NCBI RefSeq assembly: GCF_014779765.1
Contig: NZ_JACXZA010000001.1
Span: 1,240,001-1,304,000, forward strand
DNA from: Paenibacillus terricola
Lineage (GTDB): Bacteria > Bacillota > Bacilli > Paenibacillales > Paenibacillaceae
Length of the DNA: 64,000 bases
Direction: 5' to 3'
A program made the translations under genes and the position numbers. Positions 8,786 through 62,760 of this stretch are shown here, one piece after another. The notes beneath the pieces were generated by a model. The model worked only from the letters and a program-made list of their open reading frames with translations. It did no database searches and had not been told where the DNA came from. The stretch's first letter is position 1. Each line of letters starts with the position of its first letter.

Positions 8786-9643
8786 CTAACTATTCATATC
8801 AGGCGTCTCAGCGGATGGCTTCTGCAGGGTACCGAACAGTCCGACTATCGTTTCAGCCATCCCGCTTGCTGACTTCAGCTGCGCCTCCTCCACCCGGAAC
8901 ACTCCGCTGCTCTCGCCATGCTCCTGGAAGGCAATGCCGCGCCATTCATATTCGTTTGAGGCAGGTTTCTTCTTGAAAGCGATAAGATTCGGGTTGATCA
9001 ACGAACTCTCCGTTATCTCTGGCATGTCCTGCGCGGGGAACCCTTGTTCATCCGCCCAATCTTTAAGCGATGGGAAGTAGGTGCCGATATTGCCGATCAA
9101 GCAGCCCTGACAGCCCCCGTTGTCAAAATATTGGACGAACTCTTTGTCATCCTCCGGGTCTGCAAGCTGTACGCTCGTCGATCCGTTCGCTCCGACATCT
9201 GCCGATTGAACGATCCAATCCTTGGGAGCAAGCAGCAAGACATTTTGGTTTCCGTATCCTTGGTTCATCCAATATACAGCTAGCTCATCCTTCAAATCGG
9301 ATGGAATATCATAATCGAGATCAGCCAAAGGCTGCTCCGGAATGATCGAACGCGGATGCTCGGGATCATCGTCGATTGCGTATTGACCTTGTACACAGCG
9401 CAAGGGCATGGGCTGCTTCTGTTCGCCTGTCCCGACTTGAACAGTACCGCATTCTGTTATTCGACTGGCGTTTACGGCTGCGGGTTGATCTTCTTGTTTC
9501 TTCTGTTCGGCTTCACCTTGATCGTTCACTGAACCAGCTAGAGATAGGGTATCATCGATGACAGCCGCGGTCTTCGAGGCACATCCGGCAATCGTTAAAG
9601 AAATTAACGTTAACAGGACAACGAGTCCTTTAGTATATCGCAT
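8786..9643 (-). CDS. Lipoprotein of unknown function
   Basis: 285 residues. A type II signal peptide is clear: MRYTKG, a hydrophobic stretch, then the lipobox TIAGC, with Cys at ~21. A Gln/Glu/Asp-rich linker follows. The folded part (~95-270) contains NQGYGNQNVLLLAPKDW, a Cys pair in GGCQGCLIG, and a C-terminal segment ending in IVGLFGTLQKP. I recognise no catalytic motif; the repeated aromatic/Asp pattern suggests a beta-rich extracellular domain, possibly a DUF of Paenibacillus lipoproteins. AGGGAG precedes the chosen ATG, and only this start places the lipobox correctly. It is divergent from the carbonic anhydrase gene. Confidence 0.65.
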   Translation of the reverse strand: MRYTKGLVVLLTLISLTIAGCASKTAAVIDDTLSLAGSVNDQGEAEQKKQEDQPAAVNASRITECGTVQVGTGEQKQPMPLRCVQGQYAIDDDPEHPRSIIPEQPLADLDYDIPSDLKDELAVYWMNQGYGNQNVLLLAPKDWIVQSADVGANGSTSVQLADPEDDKEFVQYFDNGGCQGCLIGNIGTYFPSLKDWADEQGFPAQDMPEITESSLINPNLIAFKKKPASNEYEWRGIAFQEHGESSGVFRVEEAQLKSASGMAETIVGLFGTLQKPSAETPDMNS

Positions 9644-40409: not shown

Positions 40410-40437
40410 TAAACTCTTGCACATCGTATGCCGATAT
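40410..40437 (+). promoter_or_regulatory. Sigma-D (flagellar) promoter of ylqG-ylqH
   Basis: TAAA, 16 bases, GCCGATAT: an exact match to both conserved boxes of the sigma-D/sigma-28 promoter, ~43 bases before the start codon of ylqG. No other such match was found in the intergenic regions of this window. Confidence 0.75.
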
Positions 40438-40479
40438 ATCGTTCATATAGATACGTGAAGATTGAGGGGAATTGACACC

Positions 40480-42501
40480 TTGAACAACAACATTACACAA
40501 ATGATGAGAGGCCTGCTAGGTGATGTGAAGAGCGGCGATACCCGGAAGGTGGAGCTGAAACCAGGTCAAGTCGTACGAGGCGTCGTCATGAAGGTGGAGA
40601 GCGATAGCAAGGATGCTATTGTTCAAATTAACGGGGTTCAGGTGCGTGCGAAGCTGGAGACACCACTCGCTCCGGGACAGACGGCGATGCTGAAGGTACA
40701 GCCTGAGTCGACATCGGAGTCCATTGTGCTGAAGCCAGTTGAAACAGCGGCTGACCAAGCAACAGATGAAACGATTCGTCAGCTTGTGAAGGCAGCTGGG
40801 ATGCCGGAGACGAAGTGGGCGATGGATCTCGTTCGGGATCTCAAACGGGATGGCATACCGCTGACGCGAGATGTGATAGAGGCGCTGAAGAAGGCTGTCG
40901 AGTCGGTGCCGAAGGGGGTTGACCCTGAGGAATGGATGCGTGCAGCAGCTGTTGCGCTGAGGCGGGGCATGCCGGTTACGGAGCAAACGGTTGCAGGAAT
41001 GCGACAAATCATGTATGGCAAGCCAGTGCATCAGCTGTTGGCAGACCTGGAGATGCAGCTGGAGAGCATACCATCTCAGCAGGCGGTCACAAGTGGTGCA
41101 CATGAGCATGAGAATGCTGTAGGCGATACATTGGCACGATTAAAGGTTATTCTAGCGGACATGAAATCAACAGCTAATGGATCAACGAATACTGCTGCGG
41201 CAGATGCGGAATCCAATCATGCAGGTGACGTATCAGGTGCGAAGAACGCATTGACTGCGCAAGCGTCGAGACCGTCTGCGAATCTGATTGCCTTACAGAA
41301 GGCGGCAGCATATGAAGCGATGGAGCTGCCTGGCGATACCATTGAGATGCCAATGAATAGAACGGCTGTAAGCGGATCCGCAGGCCAAACGGATAGCATA
41401 TTGGCGAAAGCATCTGCCGAGACCACGATTGCGACTGGACAAGGTCAAGCAGCCCCTTCCAGCATAGGAAGCGACACTAACGGATGGATTGGTAAAATGC
41501 TGCAGCTGCTCGGGGTTAACCATGAGCAGGAGCTGCTGCATGAGACCGCTAAGCAGCTAGCGTCTAGTACGAATGATAATAAGACTGCGGCAGCTCCTGT
41601 AGCACGTTCTAATCAAGAACCAGCGGATCAACAAGTCTCGATGATGAAGCAGCCGAGTGCATTAGATTTAGGAGCAGCCCCTGCACGTCCCACAGGCATA
41701 CCAACAGCGACAGTGACCGTCGGTGCAGATGAGGTTGAAGCAACTGTTGAAGGCGGAACAGCTGATCATGCTGCTGAGCGTAGCAATAATGGCCAGCAGC
41801 AAGCCCAGGCACAAGCTGCATCTGCACAGGGACGAACAACATCTACACCACATGTTCACTCGCCTCAGCTAACTGATGATGGAATGCCAGCGCCATTGCA
41901 GAACGGCATTCGGCCGACGGAGAACGCCGTTTCCGAAACGTTAAAGAGTACGCTGTTGTCGCTTGCCGCGATGGATGACGCGCCACCTCAGTTGCGTGAA
42001 ACTGCCCAACAGCTCATTCATCATATAACCGGTCAGCAACTGATGCTTGCGCCAGAACGGAACGGCTCTGTACTGACACATGTTACGTTGTTCATCCCGA
42101 TCCAGGATGAGAATGGCAGCCAGACAGCTTCTGTCCATGTGCAGACACGAAGAGGAGCTAAAAATGAACTGGATGCCGCGAACTGCCGACTTTTGTTTGA
42201 CCTGCATCTGAAGGTGCTTGGCGATACGGTTGTTGATGTTCATGTGGTCGATAAGATCGTGAACTTGAATATTTGGAATGATCACCCTGTCATGAATCTC
42301 ATTGCGGATGGCGAACGTGGGGCAGTGGCGAATGCTTTGAATAACGCAGGTTATCAGCTGCTTACCTTTAATGTAAGGCCGACAATGCGTCATGCAACTG
42401 CTAGCGGTGATCAATCCGATGAGTTAATTAGCGATCTGCTTATGCCGGACATCCCCTCTTATGGCGGCACACCTTATAAAGGAGTCGATATCAAGATATG
42501 A
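40480..42501 (+). CDS. ylqG: YlqG-type protein with FliK-like C-terminal domain
   Basis: 673 residues. N-terminal ~80 residues form a small beta-domain (VELKPGQVVRGVVMKVESDSKDAIVQINGVQVRAKL); residues ~85-190 are helical. A long low-complexity Ala/Gln/Thr/Ser region runs to ~500. The C-terminal ~120 residues resemble the FliK hook-length domain: a beta-strand pattern around LFDLHLKVLGDTVVDVHVVDKIVNLNIW, then VANALNNAGYQLLTFNV. FliK senses hook length and switches FlhB. GAGGGGA lies nine bases before the TTG start. It overlaps ylqH (ATGA), has a sigma-D promoter, and is therefore probably a motility gene. Similarity was judged by eye. Confidence 0.65.
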   Translation: MNNNITQMMRGLLGDVKSGDTRKVELKPGQVVRGVVMKVESDSKDAIVQINGVQVRAKLETPLAPGQTAMLKVQPESTSESIVLKPVETAADQATDETIRQLVKAAGMPETKWAMDLVRDLKRDGIPLTRDVIEALKKAVESVPKGVDPEEWMRAAAVALRRGMPVTEQTVAGMRQIMYGKPVHQLLADLEMQLESIPSQQAVTSGAHEHENAVGDTLARLKVILADMKSTANGSTNTAAADAESNHAGDVSGAKNALTAQASRPSANLIALQKAAAYEAMELPGDTIEMPMNRTAVSGSAGQTDSILAKASAETTIATGQGQAAPSSIGSDTNGWIGKMLQLLGVNHEQELLHETAKQLASSTNDNKTAAAPVARSNQEPADQQVSMMKQPSALDLGAAPARPTGIPTATVTVGADEVEATVEGGTADHAAERSNNGQQQAQAQAASAQGRTTSTPHVHSPQLTDDGMPAPLQNGIRPTENAVSETLKSTLLSLAAMDDAPPQLRETAQQLIHHITGQQLMLAPERNGSVLTHVTLFIPIQDENGSQTASVHVQTRRGAKNELDAANCRLLFDLHLKVLGDTVVDVHVVDKIVNLNIWNDHPVMNLIADGERGAVANALNNAGYQLLTFNVRPTMRHATASGDQSDELISDLLMPDIPSYGGTPYKGVDIKI

Positions 42502-42830
42502 AAGACAAGCCAAGATCGACTCCAACTGCATCTGCGTCCGCAGAAGAACAGACAACGGAATCGGTGCGCAGAGCGGTTGCTCTCAAATACGAGCCAGGTG
42601 AGCGTTCGGCGCCTGTCGTTGTGGCGAAAGGCAAAGGATATCTGGCTAATGCGATTGTGGAGAAGGCAGCGGAGAACGGCGTTCCCGTCCAGGAGGACGC
42701 ATCGCTCGTTGAAGTGCTCTCCAAGATCGATCTTAATCAGGAAATTCCGCCGGAATTATATGCGCTTGTTGCTGAAATATTAAGCTTCATCTATCGTTCG
42801 GATAAGCGGGCAGGAGGATGGGATGATTAA
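42498..42830 (+). CDS. ylqH: FlhB C-terminal-domain homologue (YlqH/FlhX type)
   Basis: 110 residues that match only the cytoplasmic domain of FlhB/YscU, without membrane helices: AVALKYEPGERSAPVVVAKGKGYLANAIVEKAAENGVPV, then IPPELYALVAEILSFIY. In FlhB an NPTH self-cleavage site directly precedes YAVALKY; here the residues are SVRR, so no cleavage is expected. It might stand in for the FlhB C-fragment or compete with it in export switching. It overlaps ylqG by 4 bases and yraN by 8, so the three are co-translated. Confidence 0.88.
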   Translation: MKDKPRSTPTASASAEEQTTESVRRAVALKYEPGERSAPVVVAKGKGYLANAIVEKAAENGVPVQEDASLVEVLSKIDLNQEIPPELYALVAEILSFIYRSDKRAGGWDD

Positions 42831-62719: not shown

Positions 62720-62760
62720 TCTCTTCGCTTGCTTTCGTTGGATGGAAGGAGGTGAAACAA

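Follow-up and report, generated by a model that had tools for sequence, protein, structure and literature searches.

The genes ylqG and ylqH adjoin each other on the forward strand of the window (the whole 64,000-nucleotide stretch of Paenibacillus terricola DNA analysed here), between genes which we take to be rnhB and yraN. ylqG (40480..42501) encodes a FliK-type protein of 673 amino acids, with a FliK C-domain match over residues 569-634 and a C-terminal tail, ...YKGVDIKI, whose codons (KGVDIKI) are at 42478..42498 and which is comparable to the tail of E. coli FliK. ylqH (42498..42830) encodes a free-standing FlhB C-domain of the FlhX type, recognised by profile matches, and the two reading frames overlap by ATGA. 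The start of ylqG is most likely the TTG at 40480 rather than the first TTG at 40462, because a putative ribosome-binding site, GAGGGG, lies ahead of it on the same strand (40464..40469) and several relatives start with [MV]NIxxxMRGxL. Further upstream, at 40410..40437 on the forward strand, is a sigma-D-type promoter, TAAA-N16-GCCGATAT, identified by a motif scan and by its conservation in the family. The canonical fliK of this genome starts at 62752 and extends beyond the end of the window. The closest named relative is P. cellulosilyticus (85% identity in YlqH), and the genome is of Paenibacillaceae type.

The initial annotation had described YlqH as an FlhB cytoplasmic domain without the NPTH cleavage motif, and this was borne out. 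The protein, of 110 amino acids, matched Pfam Bac_export_2 (FlhB) with an E value of 2.3e-21 over profile positions 261-335 of 335 only, the N-terminal membrane domain of FlhB being absent, and an NPTH-type autocleavage motif was found neither in the window YlqH nor in its relatives (0/90); the genome's own FlhB has its NPTH site (...KADVVITN|PTH). The relatives are from a locus set from which 7 of 97 loci were dropped as having no short YlqH frame (L043, L049, L052, L058, L068, L069 and L070, four of them Paenibacillus) and from which L072-L083 were omitted, their matches being read as FlhB (NPTH). The top NCBIfam match of YlqH was TIGR00789 (flhB_rel, FlhB-like; E 1.5e-28), but, unlike the formal members, the window protein falls under the cut-off (98.8 vs 117.35 bits) and so does not formally belong to that family, for which matches above the cut-off were present in 0 of 5 genomes searched and in 2 of 14 control genomes. 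Like FlhX, HP1575 and the TIGR00789 proteins, YlqH is a stand-alone FlhB C-domain, and it is probably the known FlhX. The accessible parts of two papers count FlhX among the flagellar secretion proteins (PMC9321776, PMC10746217), and we infer that their FlhX is a YlqH-type protein; the accessible part of a third counts ylqH among the type III secretion genes of Aliarcobacter (PMC9235176).

The substrate pocket of FlhB_CCD is given as residues A286, P287, A341 and L344 in the accessible part of PMC13344023. The equivalents in the window YlqH, located by residue counts on the FlhB chain, are A38, P39, A92 and L95, which are kept in 89, 91, 91 and 84, respectively, of 91 sequences (the relatives and the window protein), and they may be kept for reasons of fold. 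The retained docking pocket would also fit YlqH being a spare FlhB_CC for gates with a lost or damaged FlhB C-domain, with YlqG only a chaperone or delivery factor that has no switch action, and H. pylori HP1575 is said, in the title of a paper by Wand et al. (2006), to be an FlhB_CC spare part. We hold this explanation to be possible, if somewhat unlikely, as a plain chaperone would have no need of a FliK C-domain and a FliK-type tail together, and the late promoter described below would be odd for a repair part.

Taken alone, the window YlqG matched Flg_hook (PF02120) with an E value of 0.042, which is under the Pfam cut-off; across its family, 47 of 57 selected members matched at E <= 0.1 (best 4e-13), and of ten that were rescanned, 8 matched at E <= 0.01, 5 were over the Pfam cut-off and 2 gave no match. 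The top PDB match of the YlqG family profile was FliK (2RRL, E 2.4e-5), the remainder being chance-like, from 0.0017, and including ACE2 matches that were taken as chance. Alignment by hhalign of 13 YlqG from Bacilli with 30 canonical FliK gave a probability of 89.6 and an E value of 1.9e-6 over 70 columns, compared to a probability of 0.4 for the control of YlqG against YlqH. The proposal that the end of YlqG follows the FliK C-domain pattern has thus withstood a check by sequence, and so has the proposal that YlqG is distinct from canonical fliK, since 62 YlqG rows and 41 canonical FliK rows were separated in a tree by one 100/100 branch (L229 and L144 were left out; the tree is built on a short domain, contains some long branches and has a bootstrap that had yet to converge). 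Judged by this tree, the YlqG clade is distinct from the FliK clade and both are old, which makes YlqG a paralogue and not an orthologue of canonical FliK, and it is named FliK-type here for that reason. Within the same limits of a short domain, some long branches and an unsettled bootstrap, the tree ruled out that YlqG is a recent copy of FliK. A canonical FliK was also present in 18 of 18 YlqH genomes searched and in the genomes of loci L064, L066 and L071 (and probably in that of L065, from strand and match position only), so that YlqG is a second FliK there.

The N-terminal part of YlqG gave weak matches to TOBE, S1-like, MSSS and Sm/Hfq (small beta-barrel) and to DUF6240. Residues ~20-170 (window ~40540-41000) possibly form a small barrel followed by helices. 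With its long variable middle and FliK-type C-domain, YlqG might be taken for a second secreted ruler of flagellar length that has YlqH as its target, but the length of the ylqG frame differs widely between relatives (187 to 763 aa), the supposed target is a soluble protein in its own right, and the late promoter would act after hook measurement; the N-terminal matches also count against a ruler, although this is a weak point as the FliK N-domain may lack a model. Nothing examined points to length measurement, and we regard the ruler role put forward in the initial annotation as highly improbable.

The tail of YlqG follows the pattern phi-D-phi-[KR]-phi, with D at position -4 in 84 of 87 tails and K or R at -2 in 79 of 87, and a hand count of those from outside Paenibacillaceae gave 39/42 and 35/42 for the same two positions. 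Among 42 canonical FliK sequences, 37 fit phi-[DN]-phi-x-[LIVAM] at the C-terminus and 9 have a basic -2 residue (L067, L157 and L163 were left out of the tail counts, as of the promoter counts below, while L229 and L144 were kept). The window YlqG ends in GVDIKI, the FliK of E. coli K-12 in GVDIFA and the FliK of the window genome in GINVRA. YlqG therefore has the C-domain and C-terminal tail in common with FliK (PF02120), but differs from it in its separate clade, in the mostly D residue at -4 and basic residue at -2, in the position of its gene next to ylqH and in the presence of a canonical FliK alongside it.

According to the accessible part of a 2026 paper (PMC13344023), Salmonella FliK ejects the cleaved FlhB_CCD, and the last five residues of FliK together with the fold of residues 301-350 are proposed to act on FlhB_CCD. 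A FliK C-domain with its tail thus likewise faces an FlhB_CCD in that system (PMC13344023, accessible part), but there FlhB_CCD comes from cleavage of the FlhB that sits at the gate, whereas YlqH is a separate protein co-encoded with a FliK-type partner. In the accessible part of PMC6972891, FlhB binds the FliK core (268-352) and residues 353-405 form a disordered tail with control over switching, which makes binding by the tail uncertain even for FliK. An AlphaFold prediction for a read-through of the YlqG tail into YlqH had a mean pLDDT of 44. It is conceivable, though we think it unlikely, that the FliK-type tail (phi-D-phi-x-phi-COOH) mimics the part of FlhB leading up to the NPTH cleavage and that FliK ejects FlhB_CCD by exchange; YlqG-YlqH would then be a deliberate exchange product, in which a FliK tail takes the place of FlhB_CN and holds a soluble FlhB_CCD, and the late-made pair could re-arm or lock switched gates. 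No mention of FlhX, a strand or a mimic was found in the text of PMC13344023.

Among 398 genomes of the phylum, 328 matched the YlqH profile, which also picks up FlhB, and 235 had two or more matches (the 93 one-match genomes were counted by eye). FlhA was present in 327 of the 398, and two or more FlhB-C-type stretches, found in 235/398, occurred in none of the 71 genomes lacking FlhA. When the lists were compared by eye, only G139 and G435 had a YlqH-profile match without FlhA and only G333 had FlhA without a match. In both G139 and G435 a single YlqH-type match is accompanied by flagellin genes, so that a gap in the assembly probably accounts for the lack of FlhA. YlqH was thus seen only in flagellated genomes, and none of the genomes without signs of flagella among the 398 was found to carry it; a wide presence of YlqH in non-flagellated genomes, which would have told against the initial annotation, was not found in this sample. 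The link to flagella does not point to any one step, and we found no phenotype in print, and so the pair could serve another process tied to flagella, such as late-substrate export or the turnover of ejected FlhB domains, and not the switch; we think this decidedly unlikely, as the two proteins match both of the parts that make the switch.

A YlqG-type frame, recognised by position and C-terminal sequence, adjoins ylqH in 55 of 57 loci that were picked around YlqH from the best matches (17 of them Paenibacillaceae), and the two others (L157 and L163) have no YlqG-type gene directly upstream of YlqH. A second FliK domain was found in 12 of 18 YlqH genomes but in none of 24 flagellated genomes with a single FlhB-C-type match (Fisher P = 1.7e-6, a value which treats genomes as independent, the 24 having been hand-picked from the 93). 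Five of the six YlqH genomes without a second FliK match have a low-scoring YlqG beside YlqH, and the sixth, G196, is the exception at L163; the count misses 5 of 17 known YlqG, so the lack of a second domain in the 24 does not by itself establish a loss. In G207 and G174, whose genera include other species with two YlqH-profile matches, each of the two domains matched once. YlqG and YlqH seem to have been lost together. The overlapping or adjacent genes and this apparent joint loss would also fit a chaperone and its client, as the spare-part explanation has it.

The consensus for sigma-D (FliA) in Gram-positive bacteria is TAAA, 14-16 bp and GCCGATAT. Only one match to TAAA-gap-GCCGATAT with a 14-17 bp gap was found in the window, the site at 40410-40437 (+) to which the initial annotation had drawn attention, compared to 0.06 expected from shuffled sequence (at least one match in 6 of 100 shuffles). 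Conservation was scanned for with [AG]CCGATA[TA] from -200 to +30 bp around the first start codon of the ylqG frame, a full promoter having in addition a T..A box 14-17 bp upstream of the -10 box. In the Paenibacillus group (28 loci, 26 titled Paenibacillus and 2 titled Bacillus sp., and the window), the -10 box lies ahead of ylqG in 25 of 29 (0.52 expected from shuffles), all 25 also with the upstream box (0.18 expected); across 17 other Paenibacillaceae genera, the -10 box was present in 13 (0.20 expected) and the upstream box as well in 11 (0.04 expected), these counts covering related species whose loci are not independent of one another. Neither the -10 box nor the full promoter was found ahead of ylqG in 7 other Bacilli (0/7 for each), and among 35 loci from other classes the -10 box was present in 3 and the upstream box as well in 2. 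The promoter is thus conserved as far as Paenibacillaceae is concerned and absent from the other Bacilli (7/7); as the latter have no sigma-D motif and 32/35 other-class loci have no -10 box, late expression is not general, and the view that the pair is made late does not hold as a property of ylqGH at large. Motifs resembling sigma-D sites at two of the other-class loci, L158 and L166 (2/35, 0.10 expected), may reflect late control arisen more than once, or chance.

When 37 family sites were aligned on the -10 box, whose CCGATA core is set by selection of the sites, a TTNA box, which is free of that selection, stood 16 bp upstream (first T in 36/37, last A in 31/37) and the spacer between the two was nearly random. 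Promoter sites were 88- and 74-fold denser ahead of ylqG than in the rest of the same loci, and both this enrichment and the shuffles speak against a chance match, which was rejected. A looser motif, TNMA-N16-GCCGATAW, had 55 matches in the genome against 9 for a reversed control, and the majority of 13 inspected sites lay within reading frames, which calls for caution over the weight of the motif alone. The genome has a sigD/FliA gene (254.6 bits, cut-off 189.6), and its flagellin gene has, by eye, TAAA-N16-GCCGATGA, which is two letters off GCCGATAT and would fail the pattern of the conservation scan; no such site was found in the inspected stretch of a second flagellin-type gene. From these sites, sigma-D would be expected to transcribe ylqG-ylqH in Paenibacillaceae. 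A conserved TATA lies ~7 bp 3' of the -10 box in the 37 Paenibacillaceae sites (second-position A in 34/37), in the window at ~40444-40447, close to the expected transcription start. Elsewhere in the window, TTAA-N16-GCCGATAT occurs at 9063-9090, within a minus-strand frame and ~700 bp ahead of a gene which we take to be carbonic-anhydrase-like, and is probably due to chance.

Searches of the literature (ylqG/ylqH, FlhX/HP1575, the sigD regulon, a second FliK) found no functional study of ylqGH and, for ylqG/ylqH, no expression data, and a term search of the accessible part of PMC3430611 found nothing. YlqG as a second FliK, its tail, the joint loss and the sigma-D-type promoter were unreported in the literature covered, most subscription papers being outside that coverage. 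In the accessible part of PMC11523185, a ylqG substitution was one of several mutations found in evolved clones, most of which were swarming-deficient, and is uninformative alone. In Nitratiruptor, fliK is named with flhX, away from the main flagellar cluster and in passing, in the accessible part of PMC9321776, where function, tail and promoter are not given, and this pair resembles that of ylqG and ylqH. FlhX and the Nitratiruptor flhX-fliK pair are thus already in print, going by the accessible parts of these papers, while the second FliK of the pair and the conservation of its promoter appear to be new.

On balance we lean towards reading YlqG-YlqH as the switch pair of flagellar export specificity in a free-standing copy whose two parts are encoded together, in which YlqG would control YlqH as a stand-in for FlhB_CCD, acting in Paenibacillaceae on switched gates. 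The support is sequence-based and consists of both homologies, the tail, the pocket residues, the absence of NPTH, the adjacency, the link to flagella and the conserved promoter; that YlqG binds YlqH directly, that the pair acts on the gate and depends on sigma-D, and which way the effect goes are what we infer from it. YlqG, with its FliK-type C-domain and tail, would bind YlqH, an FlhB_CCD-type domain with no membrane anchor or autocleavage site, through that domain and its last residues, in the way proposed for FliK and FlhB_CCD. Where canonical FliK has ejected FlhB_CCD, YlqH, its docking pocket kept, could take the place of that domain, and YlqG would control this step. In Paenibacillaceae the pair would be transcribed by sigma-D mainly after the gate has switched, and so would act on switched gates, either holding them in the late mode or re-arming them.

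ylqG-ylqH would then be a natural two-gene switch pair without the membrane part, for a mechanism that was published in 2026 (PMC13344023, accessible part). YlqH is present in up to 235 of 398 genomes and the late-type promoter in one family. If this reading is true, the pair would offer a simple system for binding and structural work, and it would follow that an export switch can still be restocked or controlled once it has flipped.
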